Positions 6,336 to 20,189 of a DNA stretch of 46,891 bases are shown piece by piece (positions within the stretch are counted from its first letter, which is position 1; each line of letters opens with the position of its first letter). The notes below the pieces were generated by a model. That model was given only the letters and a program-made list of their open reading frames with translations. It searched no databases and was not told the origin of the DNA. The stretch is taken from NCBI GenBank assembly GCA_002686365.1, contig NZBZ01000015.1, positions 1 through 46,891 of the forward strand, written 5' to 3'. The position numbers were made by a program, and so were the translations under genes. The DNA comes from a bacterium. GTDB taxonomy: Bacteria > Patescibacteriota > Minisyncoccia > UBA6257 > GWB1-50-10.

Positions 6336-6364
6336 ATTCTAGCGTGGATTTAGGGGGATGTCAG
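6336..6364 (-). promoter_or_regulatory. smpB promoter, -35 overlapping the argS start codon
   Basis: Reading the minus strand: -35 CTGACA (6364-6359), 17 bases, -10 TAGAAT (6341-6336). Transcription would start at about the A of the smpB ATG (6329). The -35 box covers argS codons 1-3, so smpB and argS compete for this DNA. Confidence 0.6.
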
Positions 6365-8103
6365 CTTTTCATCTTCCTCAAGCTAGGGTAGTATTTTCGT
6401 ATATGAGAGATGTTGTTTTGAGTAAGGTTCAGGAGGTTGTTCCCGGCAGCTTCCGAGATCAAGTTGAGGTTTCTGTTTCAGAGAGTGTGGAGCACGGGCA
6501 TTACTCTACGAATGTCGCGTTTTTGATTGCTAAGGAAGAGAAGAAATCACCCTCGGATGTTGCTCGTGTTTTGGCAAAGAAGATAGAGGAAGCAGATTCG
6601 AAGAATGTGTTTGAGAAGGTTGATACTGCTGGGGCTGGGTTTATTAATTTTTTTCTTTCTAAGGAATTGCTTGGTGAGACAGTGAAGGAGATTTTGAAGA
6701 AGGGTGAGAAGTTTGGGCAAGGCAGGAAAAAGAAAGAGACAATTGTGATTGAGTATTCCTCTCCTAATATCGCAAAGCCATTAGGGGTTCATCATTTGCG
6801 CTCTACGATTATTGGTCAGGCATTGGTTGATATTTTGAGATTTGAGGGATATAAGGTTGTATCTTTGAGCTTCCCCGGGGATTGGGGTACGCAGTTTGGG
6901 CTTTTGATTGCGGGGTATAAGCAGTGGGGAGATGAGAAAAAGATTAAAGCGCATCCGATTGATGAGATGCTTCGGCTCTATGTAAAATTTTCTGCTGCTG
7001 CAAAGAAGAACCCGAAGCTTTTGGATGAGGGCAGGGCAGAGTTTAAGAAGCTGGAAGATGGAGATAAAGAGAACTTGAAACTCTGGAAATGGTTTTTAGA
7101 TGAGTCTCTTCAAGATTTTGAAAAGGTGTATGAGTTTTTGGGCATGAAGATAGAGAACACGATTGGAGAGAGTTATTACGAGAAAGAGCTAGATGGGATT
7201 GTAGAGGATGCTTTGAAAAAGGGAATTGCTAAAAAGGGTGATGATGAGTCAGTTGTGGTGTCTATTCCGGACAGTAAGACTCCGGAGATTATTCGAAAGT
7301 CGGATGGGGCTACTATTTATACAACTCGGGAGGTTGCCGCTATTAGACATCGTTTGAAGAAGTGGAAGGCAGATAAGATTTTGTATGTTGCTGCGAATCA
7401 GCAGACGTTTCATCTTGCCCAGGTCTTCAGGGTTGCCGAACTCATGGGCATAGCAAGGGCAAAGCAGTTGGGGCATGTGAAGTTTGGGATGATGTTTGGT
7501 CCTGGAGGGAAGAAGTTTGCTACGCGAGAGGGTCGGCTTATTCCGCTTATTGATGTGCTTGAAGATGCAGTGGGGCGGAGTCGGAAGGTTGTGGATGAGC
7601 TGAATCCTAAATTGTCGGATTCTAAGAAAGATGAAGTTGCTCACGCGGTTGGAGTTGGAGCTGTTAAGTTTTTTGATCTTTCGCAGAATCGGAAGAGCGA
7701 TATTATATTTGAGTGGGATAAGGCGTTGAGTTTGAAGGGTTCTACAGCGCCTTATATTCAGTATACGTATGCGCGCTTGAAGAGTATTTTGCGTAAGGCT
7801 GGAGGCGGTGCGAAAAAGTTTGATATTTCGCTTTTGAAGGAGCCGTCAGAAGAATTTTTGATAGCTCAGCTTTTGCATTTTTCGGAAGTTGTGGAGACTG
7901 CTGGTAATCGGTATGAGCCGCATATTATAGCAGAATATCTTTTGCGTTTGTCAGAAAAGATAAATACATTTTATCAGGCAGTGCCTGTGTTAAAGGCAGG
8001 GGGTGTTTTGCAGGAGTCCCGCCTCTCTCTTATTTTGGCTTCTACTATTATCTTGAAGAAGGGATTGAATCTTTTGGGTATTGAGGCTCCAGAAGAAATG
8101 TAG
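6358..8103 (+). CDS. argS: Arginyl-tRNA synthetase
   Basis: This class Ia synthetase charges tRNA-Arg. The 581 residues are a full-length protein: an N-terminal Add1 domain, the HIGH-equivalent in IEYSSPNIAKPLGVHHLRST (~residues 130-150), WGTQFG, the KMSK-equivalent KFATREGRLIPL (~383), and the helical anticodon-binding domain from ~460 to the end. GVHHLRST replaces the usual HVGHLRS. It is divergent from smpB with only 28 bases between the two start codons. A GGGGG run touches the ATG, too close to act as a normal Shine-Dalgarno. It ends in a terminator at 8111. Confidence 0.96.
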   Translation: MSAFHLPQARVVFSYMRDVVLSKVQEVVPGSFRDQVEVSVSESVEHGHYSTNVAFLIAKEEKKSPSDVARVLAKKIEEADSKNVFEKVDTAGAGFINFFLSKELLGETVKEILKKGEKFGQGRKKKETIVIEYSSPNIAKPLGVHHLRSTIIGQALVDILRFEGYKVVSLSFPGDWGTQFGLLIAGYKQWGDEKKIKAHPIDEMLRLYVKFSAAAKKNPKLLDEGRAEFKKLEDGDKENLKLWKWFLDESLQDFEKVYEFLGMKIENTIGESYYEKELDGIVEDALKKGIAKKGDDESVVVSIPDSKTPEIIRKSDGATIYTTREVAAIRHRLKKWKADKILYVAANQQTFHLAQVFRVAELMGIARAKQLGHVKFGMMFGPGGKKFATREGRLIPLIDVLEDAVGRSRKVVDELNPKLSDSKKDEVAHAVGVGAVKFFDLSQNRKSDIIFEWDKALSLKGSTAPYIQYTYARLKSILRKAGGGAKKFDISLLKEPSEEFLIAQLLHFSEVVETAGNRYEPHIIAEYLLRLSEKINTFYQAVPVLKAGGVLQESRLSLILASTIILKKGLNLLGIEAPEEM

Positions 8104-8110
8104 AAAAAAA

Positions 8111-8149
8111 AGGACCGCTGTTTGCATGATGCTACTAGGCGGTTTTTTT
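8111..8149 (+). terminator. Intrinsic terminator after argS
   Basis: The stem accgc (8114-8118) pairs with gcggt (8139-8143) and is followed by seven T. The inner sequence tgcatgatgca can form a second small stem. The terminator overlaps the last codons of the convergent PQ-loop gene. Confidence 0.7.
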
Positions 8150-8818
8150 GTATCGGCACCAGAGGACGTGCGCGATTACGAAGATTGCGGTGAAGAGCAG
8201 GGAGGTGGTGCCTAGTGCTGTGCGTTTCAGCACGACAAAGCCATACATCGTCCAGGCCGCAGAGAGGAGTATGTGCACCTGCACCATCTTAATTTGGACA
8301 ACTCCTCTGCTTTTCTCCCTCCACATTAGGAATGGTTGTGTTGCGGCTGAGACAAGATTCCCTACGTTTAGGAAGAAGAAGGTAGTTTCTATGGCTTTTT
8401 CGTTTTGTGACACTGCTATCAGCGATGCGCAGCTGATTGTGTAGATGCCTAAGAGCAAGCCTTCTATTCTTACTCCTCTGTGCTTGATTAGCACCCACGT
8501 GTTTATGATTGCAGCTGGAAATGTGCATCCATTCAGGACAGTAAGGAAGCCGTTGGCGTGTATTCCGTAAAACATTGTCCCGAGTCTCACGAAGATTAGG
8601 TTGAGAAACCATGTTGTTGAAACGGCTTCTCCGCTTCTTTCTGTCCAAATCTTGTGAGCCTGGCTTCCGTGGCTTACGATGCGCAACATGATGAGTGTAG
8701 CTAAACTGAGGACGATGAACGTCTTCCGGTTTATCCCAAAGTCTTTGAATTCCTCGCAGCCTGTGAAGAATTCTAGACAGCCTGTGAAGAATTCTAGGAT
8801 CTCTGCCAGAATTGTCAC
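8135..8818 (-). CDS. PQ-loop (SWEET-like) integral membrane protein
   Basis: This 227-residue protein has about seven hydrophobic helices, with two PQ-loop-like segments: GSQAHKIWTERSGEAVS near residues 52-68 and TQPFLMWREKSRGVV near 163-177. Two such repeats separated by a linker helix is the SWEET/PQ-loop transporter plan; bacterial SemiSWEETs carry only one repeat. Function could be small-molecule or sugar transport, unproven. The GTG start (8818-8816) is supported by TAGGAG seven bases upstream. Residues ~8-22 contain a tandem peptide repeat (EFFTGCL-EFFTGCE) from a 21-bp direct repeat at 8757-8797. Base composition is more C-rich than in neighbouring genes, hinting at acquisition. Confidence 0.68.
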   Translation of the reverse strand: MTILAEILEFFTGCLEFFTGCEEFKDFGINRKTFIVLSLATLIMLRIVSHGSQAHKIWTERSGEAVSTTWFLNLIFVRLGTMFYGIHANGFLTVLNGCTFPAAIINTWVLIKHRGVRIEGLLLGIYTISCASLIAVSQNEKAIETTFFFLNVGNLVSAATQPFLMWREKSRGVVQIKMVQVHILLSAAWTMYGFVVLKRTALGTTSLLFTAIFVIAHVLWCRYKKTA

Positions 8819-8931: not shown

Positions 8932-11900
8932 GTGTTGAATAACTTGAAACAATTTAATCTGCCGGAAGTGGAGGAGAAGGTTTTAAAGCTTTGGAAGGAA
9001 AAGCAGATATTTCAGAAGAGTTTGGATAAGAATCGCAAGAAATTTGTTTTTTATGAGGGTCCTCCTACAGCAAATGGCAGGCCGGGGATACATCATATTC
9101 TTGTTCGGTCTTTTAAAGATATTATTTGCCGTTATAAGACTATGCAGGGATATTCAGTGCCGCGGCGCGCTGGATGGGATACACATGGTCTTCCTGTTGA
9201 GCTTGAGGTTGAAAAGGAATTGGGTCTGAAATCTAAAAAGGAGATAGATGAGTATGGAATTGCAGAGTTTAATGCAAAATGCAGGGAGTCGGTATGGAAG
9301 TATCGGGATGAGTGGGAGAGGATGACAGAGCGGACTGGATTTTGGCTGGATATGAATAATCCCTATGTGACATACGAGAACTCGTATATTGAGTCAGTGT
9401 GGGGGATTTTGAAACAGATTTCACAGAGAGAGCTTTTGTATAAGGGGCATAGGGTTGTGCCGTGGTGTACAAGGTGTGGGACAGCATTGTCTTCTCATGA
9501 GCTTGCGCAGGGGTATAAGGAAGTTACGGATACTTCGGTGTACGTTAAGTTCAAAGTTTCCGCCAAAGGCGGATCCGCCTCGGGCGGAAAAGGCGAAAAG
9601 TTAAAAGTTGGCGATGTTTCGTTGGATGGAGACGTATATATTCTTTCTTGGACCACGACTCCGTGGACTTTGCCTGGTAATGTAGCGCTCGCAGTTGGGG
9701 AGGATATGGTTTATTCAATAACTGAGAAGGATGGTGAGACTCTTATTGCTGCTGAAGATTCTCCATTGGGTGAGGAGTTGGGCCATGCTGGTAAAAAAAT
9801 AAAGGGCAGAGACTTGATTGGGTTGGAGTATGAGCCGCTTTTTCCAGTAAAGGCTCTGCAGAAAAACAAAAAGTCATACAAGGTTTATTCAGCAGATTTT
9901 GTAAATACGGAGGAGGGGACTGGAGTGGTGCATACTGCTGTTATGTATGGAGAGGATGATTATGAGCTGGGCGCGAAGGAGGGACTGCCTAAGCATCATA
10001 CGGTTGATGAGGCGGGGAAGTTTACAAAAGATGTGCATGAGCTTTTGGGAATGTATGCAAAGAGCAAGAAGACAGAGGAGGAGATTATTAATCATTTAGA
10101 TGTTGAGGGGTATCTTTTGAAGACAGAGGAGTATTTACATGACTATCCACACTGTTGGAGGTGCGGGACTGCGCTTTTGTACTACGCACATGACTCATGG
10201 TTTATAAAAATGAGTAAGCTTCGGGAGGAGCTTATCTCCGCAAATAAGGGGATTAATTGGGTTCCAGAGCATTTGAAGGAGGGGCGGTTTGGTGAGTGGC
10301 TTCGCGAAGTAAAGGATTGGGCAATTTCTCGGAATCGGTATTGGGGTACTCCTTTGCCTATGTGGAAATGTAAGAAGTGTGGGAAAGAGAAAATTTTGGA
10401 GTCTAGGGAGGATATTTCAGGCGTTTTAGGCAGCACAAAGAATGAGTATTATCTTATGCGTCATGGGGAGTCAGAGAGTAATGTTTTGGGCGTTGTAAAT
10501 CATAGGTTGGAAACCAGTGATAAGTATCCTCTTACCTTGAAGGGTAGGGTTGTGGCAGAGAAGTCTGCAAAGAGTTTGAAGCGTAAGAAAATTGATGTAG
10601 TTGTTGCTTCGCCATTTCTTCGTACAAAGGAGACAGCGGAAATTCTTGGAGAGATTCTTAATGTGAAACCAGAGGAGGATTCACGTTTACACGAAAGCGG
10701 TCTTGGAGAGCTTGATGGAAAGTCGACTGGTTCGTGTCATGCTGCAGGTCCTGCGGAGCTTCAGAAGCTTTATGCGAGCAAGCCCGACTTTGAGAGTTTT
10801 CAGAGTATTGCAGAGAGGATGTTTTCTGTTGTTCGGGATTTAGAGGAGAAGTATAAGGGTAAGAAGATAGTTATTGTAAGTCATGGAGATCCGCTTTGGA
10901 TGCTTGAGGGAGTAATGCGCGGGATGAGTCTGGATGAGACTATTCGTTGGGGATATTGGGGCTTTGATATGAGTGATGCTTATATTTCTCCGGGAGAGGT
11001 GCGGAAAGTTCCTCTTCTTTCTCTTCCTCGCGGAAAGGATGGTTTTTGTGATTTGCATAGGCCGTATATTGATGATGTTCTCTTTCCTTGTGAGAAGAGC
11101 GGGTGTAAGGGGGAGATGGGGCGAGTGGAGGAGGTAATTGATGTGTGGTTTGATTCTGGAGCAATGCCGTGGGCTCAAGCACATTTTCCTTTTGCAACAC
11201 AAAAGAAAAATGTGAAATATCGAAATATCGATATATCGAGAAGTTTGTTGTATCCGGCAGATTATATTTGTGAGGCCATTGATCAGACAAGGGGATGGTT
11301 TTATACGCTTTTAGCAATTGGAGTTCTTTTGGGAGATGGGGCACCGTACAAGAATGCACTTTCTTTGGGGCATGTGCTTGATAAAAAGGGACAGAAGATG
11401 TCTAAGTCAAAAGGCAATGTTGTTGATTTGTGGGAAATGACAGATAAGTATGGCGCTGATGTTATTCGCTGGTATTTTTATACTGTAAATCCTGCTGGAG
11501 AGCCCAAGCGGTTTGATGAGGAGGATTTGAAAAAGACTTCTAGGCAGTTTTTCAATCTGTTATATAACTCTTTTGTGTTTTATGAGACGTATGCTGATAA
11601 AAGTTTAGAAGTTAAAAGTGAAAAGTTTCCGCCGAAGGCGGATTCGCCTCGGGCGAAAAAAGTTACAAATGTTTTAGATAAGTGGATTTTAGCAAGACTG
11701 GAAGGGGTGAGGGATTCTGTGACTAAAAATATGGATTCGTATGATATTGGGCGGGGGGCTCGCGCGATTGGGGATTTTGTTGAAGATCTTTCTCGGTGGT
11801 ATATTCGCCGGTCGCGGCGGCGATTTCAGAAACCAGAATCGCAGGAAGATTATGAGGCAGCTTCGCAGACTTTGGGGTATGTACTTTTGGAAATTTCAAA

Positions 11901-12510
11901 GTTACTTGCGCCTTTTACGCCGTTTTTTTCAGATGCTCTATATGCTTCGCTTGGTGGTCATGCAGAGTCTGTCCATTTGGAGGATTGGGCGAAGAAGCAG
12001 AAAAAGTTTGCTAATGATAAGCTGGTCAAGGATATGCAGGAGACAAGAGATCGTGTAGTTTCTGCTCTTGCTAAGCGGGCTGATGCTGGAGTTTCAGTAA
12101 GACAGCCTCTTGCTGCATATAGCACAGCTGTTGCCATTCCTTTTGAGGACATATTTAAAGAGGAGGTAAATGTGGAGGAAATTAAAATAGACTCCTCGCT
12201 TCCCAAGGATTCTTTAAATGATGTTCTTGATACTGAAATTACACATGAGCTTCGGGAGCGAGGTTTGCTTCGAGAGCTTGTTCGTGCTGTGCAGGGTTTG
12301 CGGCGGGATGCGGATCTTCATCCTAATGATGAGATTATTTTGGGCATTGATGGAGACGAGGAGATTTTGAGTATTGCAAAGACTTATGATAATGAGTTGA
12401 AAAAGGATGTGGGGGCTAAGCAGATAGAGTATGTGAGGTTTAAGTATGATGCAGAGCTTGAGACTAAGTTTGATGCTTATTCTGTGAGGATTGGATTGAG
12501 AAAAGTGTGA
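8932..12510 (+). CDS. ileS: Isoleucyl-tRNA synthetase with an inserted histidine-phosphatase domain
   Basis: This class Ia synthetase attaches Ile to tRNA-Ile. At 1192 residues it is ~150-250 longer than usual. Synthetase landmarks are PPTANGRPGIHHIL (HIGH region, ~44-57), SWTTTPWTLPGN (editing-domain Thr-rich motif, ~240), RNRYWGTPLPMWKCKKC (~460) and KMSKSKGN (~821), followed by a full anticodon-binding region. Between the CKKC zinc element and DLHRPYIDDV, residues ~500-690 form a complete histidine-phosphatase (phosphoglycerate-mutase-like) domain. It has the RHG motif LMRHGESESN (~508), second Arg SPFLRTKETA (~560), acid ESGLGELDG (~587) and second His VSHGDPLW (~649). All four catalytic elements are intact. 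Two palindromic repeats in frame (9559-9588 and 11627-11659) encode low-complexity loops. Start is GTG. Confidence 0.95.
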   Translation: MLNNLKQFNLPEVEEKVLKLWKEKQIFQKSLDKNRKKFVFYEGPPTANGRPGIHHILVRSFKDIICRYKTMQGYSVPRRAGWDTHGLPVELEVEKELGLKSKKEIDEYGIAEFNAKCRESVWKYRDEWERMTERTGFWLDMNNPYVTYENSYIESVWGILKQISQRELLYKGHRVVPWCTRCGTALSSHELAQGYKEVTDTSVYVKFKVSAKGGSASGGKGEKLKVGDVSLDGDVYILSWTTTPWTLPGNVALAVGEDMVYSITEKDGETLIAAEDSPLGEELGHAGKKIKGRDLIGLEYEPLFPVKALQKNKKSYKVYSADFVNTEEGTGVVHTAVMYGEDDYELGAKEGLPKHHTVDEAGKFTKDVHELLGMYAKSKKTEEEIINHLDVEGYLLKTEEYLHDYPHCWRCGTALLYYAHDSWFIKMSKLREELISANKGINWVPEHLKEGRFGEWLREVKDWAISRNRYWGTPLPMWKCKKCGKEKILESREDISGVLGSTKNEYYLMRHGESESNVLGVVNHRLETSDKYPLTLKGRVVAEKSAKSLKRKKIDVVVASPFLRTKETAEILGEILNVKPEEDSRLHESGLGELDGKSTGSCHAAGPAELQKLYASKPDFESFQSIAERMFSVVRDLEEKYKGKKIVIVSHGDPLWMLEGVMRGMSLDETIRWGYWGFDMSDAYISPGEVRKVPLLSLPRGKDGFCDLHRPYIDDVLFPCEKSGCKGEMGRVEEVIDVWFDSGAMPWAQAHFPFATQKKNVKYRNIDISRSLLYPADYICEAIDQTRGWFYTLLAIGVLLGDGAPYKNALSLGHVLDKKGQKMSKSKGNVVDLWEMTDKYGADVIRWYFYTVNPAGEPKRFDEEDLKKTSRQFFNLLYNSFVFYETYADKSLEVKSEKFPPKADSPRAKKVTNVLDKWILARLEGVRDSVTKNMDSYDIGRGARAIGDFVEDLSRWYIRRSRRRFQKPESQEDYEAASQTLGYVLLEISKLLAPFTPFFSDALYASLGGHAESVHLEDWAKKQKKFANDKLVKDMQETRDRVVSALAKRADAGVSVRQPLAAYSTAVAIPFEDIFKEEVNVEEIKIDSSLPKDSLNDVLDTEITHELRERGLLRELVRAVQGLRRDADLHPNDEIILGIDGDEEILSIAKTYDNELKKDVGAKQIEYVRFKYDAELETKFDAYSVRIGLRKV

Positions 12511-19304: not shown

Positions 19305-20189
19305 TTAGGTTAGTTGAGGGAGGAGAGATTCTCCAGTCATTTCCTGCGGGATGGGGAGATTCATTAGTTCGAGGATTGTTGGAGCAACGTCTGTGAGCAT
19401 TCCGATTGTTGGGATTTGGGCATATGGGTCGATTTGTGTTCCTGCTTTTTCATATTCTTTTCCTGCGAGATAGAAGGGGACTGGGTCTGGGTTGTTTGTT
19501 GTTTCCGGCTTTCCGGTTTTTGGATCTAATACGACTTCCGCGTTTCCGTGGCTTCCTGCTATTACGAGAGCGTGGTTTTGATTTAGCGTGTTTTCAAGGA
19601 GGCGGCCGATTTCTCGATCTACTACTTGTATAGAGTCTTTTGTTGCCGCGAAGTTTCCAGTATGTGCAATGATATCCGGATTTGCATAGTTTACTAGGAT
19701 GAAGTCGAACCCGCCTTCGTTTATTGAGGCGATTGCTCTGTCAGTGATTGCTGTTGCTCTCATTTCTGTATTGGTTTCCGGGTTTGGTGAGTTTTCAGAT
19801 GGCAGGATTGCGCGGAATTCACCTTCCAGCGGTTCTTTTTGGAGGCCGTTGAAATAATAAGTGACACATTCTTCTTTTAGAGACTCTGCAACTTTCAGAT
19901 CGGTCTTTTTGTTTGCTGCGAGGACTTCTCCCAGGGAGTTGGGTATTTTTGTTCCTTTAGAGATTTCATCTTTTTCTATTATTCTTCCTGTTCCAATAGC
20001 TAGATGTCCTTCTTTGCTTCCGCCAGCCTCTTTCCACGAGAGTCCGGTTAGGAGGCCGGAGGATTTTAGCGCGCCGTATGGAAAGCGCTCTTGTAATCCA
20101 AGAATATTTTTTGGTTTTGCAACGTAGATGGGGTTTGAGTCGTCAAACTTTCCGATTCCCCAGCCGTCGAGGATTGCGAGTATTATCAT
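19305..20189 (-). CDS. Reduced phosphoglycerate-mutase (iPGM)-like protein, probable pseudoenzyme
   Basis: The 294 residues match the phosphatase-like domain of cofactor-independent phosphoglycerate mutase (usually ~510 residues). DGWG (8-11), GGSKEGHLAIGTGRI (nucleophile Ser region), NPDIIAHTG and the C-terminal DVAPTILELMNLPIPQEMTG are present. The ~220-residue substrate-binding domain normally inserted after the GAGR region is missing. Two metal ligands are also changed: TADHGN is AGSHGN (Asp to Ser) and HTTNPVP reads TNNPDPVP (His lost). Mutase activity by the known mechanism therefore looks unlikely. It may be a phosphatase remnant, a regulator or a decaying gene. Confidence 0.8.
   Translation of the reverse strand: MIILAILDGWGIGKFDDSNPIYVAKPKNILGLQERFPYGALKSSGLLTGLSWKEAGGSKEGHLAIGTGRIIEKDEISKGTKIPNSLGEVLAANKKTDLKVAESLKEECVTYYFNGLQKEPLEGEFRAILPSENSPNPETNTEMRATAITDRAIASINEGGFDFILVNYANPDIIAHTGNFAATKDSIQVVDREIGRLLENTLNQNHALVIAGSHGNAEVVLDPKTGKPETTNNPDPVPFYLAGKEYEKAGTQIDPYAQIPTIGMLTDVAPTILELMNLPIPQEMTGESLLPQLT

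Follow-up and report, generated by a model that had tools for sequence, protein, structure and literature searches.

Does the isoleucyl-tRNA synthetase (IleRS) of this member of the Patescibacteria truly contain a second enzyme, and, if it does, what could a phosphatase do inside a synthetase? The question was raised by a first-pass annotation of the 46,891-nt stretch of DNA analysed here (hereafter the window), in which the elements of a histidine phosphatase had been noticed within the ileS reading frame.

An IleRS interrupted at its second zinc knuckle

The ileS gene occupies positions 8932–12510 of the window (+ strand, as do all of its features given below; GTG start) and encodes 1192 amino acids with no internal stop in the window translation. 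The product, identified by TIGR00392, PF00300, and AlphaFold as an IleRS with a nested histidine phosphatase, scores 871 bits against the isoleucyl-tRNA synthetase equivalog TIGR00392 (cut-off, 621), and the top fold matches of the full-length AlphaFold model (pLDDT 88.9) are the type-2 IleRS 8c8v and the T. thermophilus IleRS 1ile. An alignment of 52 IleRSs and the alignment to 1ile revealed that the HIGH and KMSKS motifs, the CP1 editing residues, and the zinc cysteines are all present. The HIGH region (GPPTANGRPGIHH, 9058–9096) falls in conserved columns of the 52-IleRS alignment. The invariant residues include T241-T243 of the CP1 editing-site motif TTTPWTLP (9652–9675), where CP1 structures also match, D343 of the GEDD motif in the same site (9958–9960), and K822, S824, and K825 of the KMSKS loop (residues 822–826, 11395–11409). 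Judged from these motifs, the window synthetase is an otherwise complete, editing-type, type-2-like IleRS.

The additional segment lies between two cysteine pairs, C480/C483 (10369–10380) and C720/C725 (11089–11106, after DLHRPYIDDV), which are the established ligands of the second zinc in IleRS. Both pairs are nearly invariant among the 52 IleRSs, and the second pair was also located in the T. thermophilus alignment, which runs up to residue 476 before the insert and resumes at residue 489 after it. As the reading frame is uninterrupted and the synthetase sequence resumes normally, the original interpretation of the segment as an inserted domain, as opposed to the product of a frame error, holds. 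The occurrence of the same one-ORF architecture in >100 genomes rules out both a frame error and a chimeric assembly.

The loop at this site measures 26–72 amino acids in IleRSs without the phosphatase versus 201–276 amino acids in those with it, and none of the 187 IleRSs examined contains another large domain family there. One IleRS (L133, genome G079) carries a repeat-derived or repeat-like insert of ~40 amino acids in the same loop, which indicates that the zinc loop tolerates insertions; it may be simply a permissive site.

Identity and conservation of the nested domain

A domain search matched the segment to the histidine-phosphatase family: PF00300 covers residues 507–672 of the window protein with 113 bits (curated cut-off, 21.7; E-value, 1.7e-32), and a wider insert profile extends the domain to residues ~503–702 (~10438–11037). 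The span of 10420–11000 given in the first-pass annotation is thus correct as to the presence of the domain, the proper limits reaching slightly further at the 3′ end. The catalytic set that had been recognized is complete, comprising R510-H511 of the RHG motif with the predicted phosphohistidine nucleophile (10459–10464), the predicted second phosphate-binding arginine R564 (10621–10623), the predicted catalytic acid E588 (10693–10695), and the predicted second catalytic histidine H651 (10882–10884). The segment was also modelled alone with AlphaFold (pLDDT 92.9, pTM 0.90), and histidine phosphatases were the best folds: the closest PDB structures identified by Foldseek are the phosphoserine phosphatase PspA (4ij6/4ij5), 9mmh, and PhoE (1h2e), with a Foldseek probability of 1.00 for 4ij6, 9mmh, and 1h2e. 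The profile match, the catalytic core, and the modelled alpha/beta fold all identify the insert as a member of branch 1 of the histidine phosphatase superfamily. The insert alone remains below the equivalog cut-offs of PspA (53 versus 350 bits), CobC (66 versus 163), and GpmB (53 versus 261), and its best NCBIfam match, dPGM_arch (NF038349; 97–101 bits), is far under the cut-off of 225. As no equivalog cut-off of a characterized phosphatase is reached, homology names no substrate.

Among the 52 inserts from the same family and order, R510, H511, R564, and H651 are represented in 52 of 52 sequences, with 51 having Glu as the acid and one having Asp, in domains that are only ~35% identical to that of the window. 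The set R-H-R-E/D-H is intact in 169 of the 173 domain records found in long ORFs, some genomes being counted twice (164 RHREH and 5 RHRDH). The exceptions are one ValRS, represented by two records of one gene, in which the second His is replaced by Ser (RHRDS), and one shortened IleRS insert, represented by two fragments. In the latter (L200, Ca. Azambacteria GW2011_GWA2_42_9), the stretch from the catalytic Glu to the second His is ~40 amino acids shorter, which may be due to decay or an assembly fault. In all close relatives, the sequence comparison found both active centres, that of the synthetase and that of the phosphatase, to be kept. The dN/dS ratio of the insert, estimated from pairs with unsaturated synonymous change only, is 0.04–0.15, like that of the synthetase body. 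These substitution patterns indicate that the catalytic machinery is under purifying selection as strong as that on the synthetase.

Distribution among the Patescibacteria

Similar fusions in related genomes had been anticipated, and they proved to be common. Approximately 51 of the 59 sampled relatives from the family and order contain the insert, counted as a frame of >900 amino acids with a PF00300 match. In the class, the insert profile matched 101 of the 133 sampled genomes, 87 of these matches lying within long ORFs and 10 being standalone members of the same subfamily. The phylum-wide search gave a count of ~30 insert bearers among 202 genomes with an IleRS match, and most of the others have an insertless IleRS whose match breaks at window residues ~495/706. 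Since most insert-bearing sequences were collected for that feature, unbiased counts come from the searches of the class and the phylum. The hosts of the fusion, a large group of minute bacteria without cultured members and mostly within the Paceibacteria, include Jorgensen-, Wolfe-, Giovannoni-, Kaiser-, Taylor-, Nomura-, Azam-, Uhr-, Doudna-, Lipton-, and Sungbacteria, and the CPR origin assigned to the protein from its sequence is supported. The insert is the rule for the IleRS of most sampled Paceibacteria and is sporadic in other classes of Patescibacteria. It may therefore be called a normal IleRS element, an option considered in the first-pass annotation as a reason to abandon its reading, within most sampled Paceibacteria, but it is absent from ordinary IleRSs and from most other Patescibacteria.

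A phage origin was rejected, since no IleRS was obtained from viral contigs, whose matches were all phage proteins bearing a generic phosphatase domain. These IMG/VR contigs (L215–L235; e.g. L217, 2992–3951) encode ~320-amino acid proteins in which a histidine phosphatase forms the N-terminal part and the C-terminal part appears cytidylyltransferase-like, and phage genes adjoin them. Four assemblies (G003, G007, G014, and G053) have no recognizable IleRS, and the matches obtained there belong to ValRS-like and other class I synthetases. Three of these assemblies are 96–98% complete, and the absence of IleRS may reflect assembly gaps.

A free-standing phosphatase gene between argS and ileS

In the window, argS (6358–8103, + strand) immediately precedes ileS in the same orientation, apart from a single ORF of 227 amino acids on the opposite strand that separates them (8135–8818, − strand); this ORF appears membrane-like by eye and has no Pfam or NCBIfam match. 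A search with the window ArgRS found argS next to both a phosphatase gene and ileS in L276–L281 and L284. Altogether, the standalone phosphatases most closely related to the insert are encoded in at least eight genomes (L180, from a Staskawiczbacterium; L276–L281; and L284), where their gene is placed between argS and an ileS that lacks the insert. The genes at these loci mostly overlap in the ATGA manner or are spaced by a few bases. Genes smpB and rplT are present near argS-ileS in the window and likewise near the split-form loci. The split genes thus occupy the syntenic locus of the window (smpB, argS, ileS), and the argS-ileS locus has the phosphatase as a separate gene in some genomes and as a nested domain in others.

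In the phosphatase tree, the split-form proteins branch among the IleRS inserts in a 50-row clade (support, 99/97), and the standalone phosphatases of L283 and L284 join the f91 inserts in a wider clade. The synthetase bodies of family f141 are scattered over the IleRS tree, whereas four operon phosphatases of this family are grouped (81/90) and the Staskawicz copy has no resolved position. The parsimonious explanation of these trees is an exchange of ileS with retention of the phosphatase, although gene-tree error or mixed bins are possible. Three genomes (G045, G380, and G055) have a standalone member of the subfamily away from ileS, and in some class members (G251) argS adjoins ileS without a phosphatase. 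The latter arrangement, together with the insertless Patescibacteria, shows that the phosphatase is not essential to isoleucylation.

Other genes were observed at this position as well. In two f49 genomes, a DUF4202/HD-domain protein, non-homologous to the phosphatase, is encoded between argS and ileS (L271, 3508–4074, − strand; L273, 3840–4409, − strand), the slot that the phosphatase occupies elsewhere. A third f49 genome has, by sequence impression, a glyoxalase-like protein in this slot. A gene that gives the impression of RNase HI (DGGxRGNPG) is found directly upstream of insertless ileS in L295 (3596–4021, − strand), L305 (3378–3809, − strand), L308 (3268–3729, − strand), and L309 (2972–3394, + strand).

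Repeated capture by IleRS and ValRS

Nesting is not confined to IleRS. Five ValRSs (genomes G052, G061, G101, G103, and G307) carry one or more phosphatases at the homologous knuckle (L091, 2386–5193; L266, 1523–4492; L267, 1417–4734; L286, 1975–4746; L287, 2372–6160; all − strand). The ValRS of G103 has two phosphatases in series, and the copy in L266 is the one that has lost its second His. Five IleRSs of family f91 (L100–L104; 1441–1530 amino acids) also contain two complete phosphatase domains in series in the zinc-knuckle region, and the second domains form a clade of their own (100/98), apart from the first domains.

Forcing all nested and split domains into a single clade costs 69 log units (AU test, p=0.005, an indicative value since the group was defined after the tree had been seen), and one origin of all these domains is rejected by this test. 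In the tree of the IleRS body, from which the insert had been cut out, the state of the insert must have changed at least 18 times, which implies that the insert often moves, is lost, or is regained. These changes, together with the AU test, also argue against a single insertion followed by vertical inheritance. According to these trees, ValRS captured other phosphatases independently, and some IleRSs acquired a second one.

Possible functions of the phosphatase

We give about an even chance to the explanation that the fused protein is a bifunctional enzyme, comprising an IleRS and an active phosphomonoesterase whose substrate is formed at the synthetase or accompanies it. The synthetase part would charge tRNA-Ile as usual, and the phosphatase part would remove the phosphate from a phosphomonoester via a phosphohistidine on H511, with E588 acting as the acid. 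More tentatively, the substrate may be a nucleotide released as a by-product, a tRNA phosphorylated at its 3′ end, or the phosphorylated synthetase. Nested in the synthetase or encoded next to ileS, the phosphatase would be kept at hand and in step with the synthetase level. The histidine phosphatase superfamily hydrolyses phosphomonoesters and an aminoacyl adenylate is a mixed anhydride/diester, so that isoleucyl-AMP would be an unnatural fit. On this established chemistry, the aminoacyl-AMP suggested in the first-pass annotation is a poor candidate. The alarmone suggested with it gained no support. The tRNA ends, also suggested there, are possible, and AMP, a phosphorylated tRNA 3′ end, and a phosphorylated synthetase are all compatible with phosphomonoester chemistry. 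For any such function, the split form, the ValRS captures, and the double insertions are stronger evidence than the insert alone, and the phosphatase and the synthetase probably work together.

The main rival, which we regard as unlikely but a serious contender, is an independent metabolic phosphatase of the PhoE/PspA/CobC kind that acts on a small metabolite outside tRNA charging and merely rides on IleRS. A gene beside ileS and a tolerant zinc loop would have led to nesting, which would then have been fixed by drift and co-expression. The operon-neighbour state postulated here exists, as do the unlinked standalone copies of G045, G380, and G055; the best folds are those of small-molecule phosphatases; and in f141 the phosphatase is kept though ileS differs. 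There is also a precedent in MSMEG_4305, the mycobacterial RNase HI–CobC protein, in which the two domains are reported to act independently and the fusion was probably fixed by drift (PMC7466739). However, the same knuckle of IleRS and ValRS has received phosphatases repeatedly and independently, which exceeds a single accident, and no other domain family occurs in the loop of the 187 IleRSs. Because of these two observations, we prefer a chemistry linked to the synthetase over a riding phosphatase.

A specific form of the preferred, synthetase-linked explanation is repair, in which the phosphatase reverses a phosphorylation of the tRNA end or the synthetase that blocks charging. HipA-type kinases phosphorylate a synthetase. 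Toxins of the toxSAS type, whose chemistry is documented, pyrophosphorylate tRNA CCA ends (PMC11559606). The insert sits on a synthetase module, the chemistry of its family is compatible with a monophosphate, and a non-homologous HD/DUF4202 protein takes the argS-ileS slot in two f49 genomes. However, the glyoxalase-like protein in the slot of the third f49 genome does not fit this pattern, and no histidine phosphatase is known to act on RNA ends or cleave a pyrophosphate linkage. We therefore consider repair in this specific form improbable.

It is still less probable that the domain is structural or idle, aiding folding or tRNA binding with its catalysis irrelevant. Elements are indeed lost from the ValRS domain of L266 (RHRDS) and from the shortened IleRS insert of L200, but the catalytic residues are kept in nearly all other copies at ~35% identity to the window domain, and the free gene keeps them too. 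A substitute phosphoglycerate mutase, suggested by the best NCBIfam match (dPGM_arch, 97 bits) and by an iPGM-like protein without its transferase part in the window, is very improbable, since that score is far under the cut-off of 225, and as a general role it is ruled out by the full-length iPGM in nearly all other insert-bearing genomes searched. The iPGM-like protein of the window (19305–20189, − strand; 294 amino acids) matches TIGR01307 only at positions 3–76 and 305–504, the inserted transferase part being missing, and no other iPGM was found in the genome of the window. G019 has the same transferase-less form, and nearly all other relatives searched have the full-length protein.

Relation to known systems and significance

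Both parts of the protein belong to known families. The insert shares its fold and the R-H, R, E, H set with branch-1 histidine phosphatases such as PhoE (1h2e/1ebb), PspA (4ij5/4ij6), the riboflavin-synthesis HFP (9mmh), and CobC, but differs from them in being nested in a synthetase and in scoring under the equivalog cut-off of every characterized member. The window IleRS shares the HIGH motif, the CP1 editing site, the zinc knuckles, the KMSKS loop, and the anticodon domain with the type-2 IleRSs of Priestia megaterium (8c8u/8c8v) and T. thermophilus (1ile), but has a phosphatase of ~200 amino acids in place of a second-knuckle loop of ~30.

Two other known architectures are comparable. The IleRS with a GNAT domain (NF040702) is likewise an IleRS with an extra enzymatic domain, but the domain differs: the window protein scores 306 bits against a cut-off of 1999 and has no Pfam acetyltransferase domain. 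The RNase HI/CobC-type fusion of actinobacteria (Rv2228c and MSMEG_4305; NF005567) likewise joins a histidine phosphatase to an RNA enzyme (PMC7466739), and the insert matches this model in the phosphatase part only (66–71 bits; cut-off, 326). In that fusion the domains are joined end to end, whereas the phosphatase of the window is nested in the synthetase and has apparently been captured repeatedly. In the open-access literature searched, we found no description of a phosphatase–synthetase fusion, and the combination is thus undescribed in those papers; domain databases may already show the architecture.

Few synthetases have gained further catalytic domains, and for a phosphatase within the catalytic half of such an enzyme we could find no earlier description. 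The genomes concerned are <1 Mb in size and have discarded most of their metabolism, yet they keep an intact phosphatase inside or beside ileS. In a broader and distinctly speculative reading, which we consider unlikely as a whole, these proteins would form a new class of bifunctional Patescibacteria synthetases, in which the phosphatase clears a phosphorylated inhibitor or by-product of charging (tRNA 3′ end, nucleotide, or synthetase) as a repair or quality-control arm. The tie of the phosphatase to ileS and its repeated fusions to IleRS and ValRS suggest a missing piece of the translation biology of the Patescibacteria.
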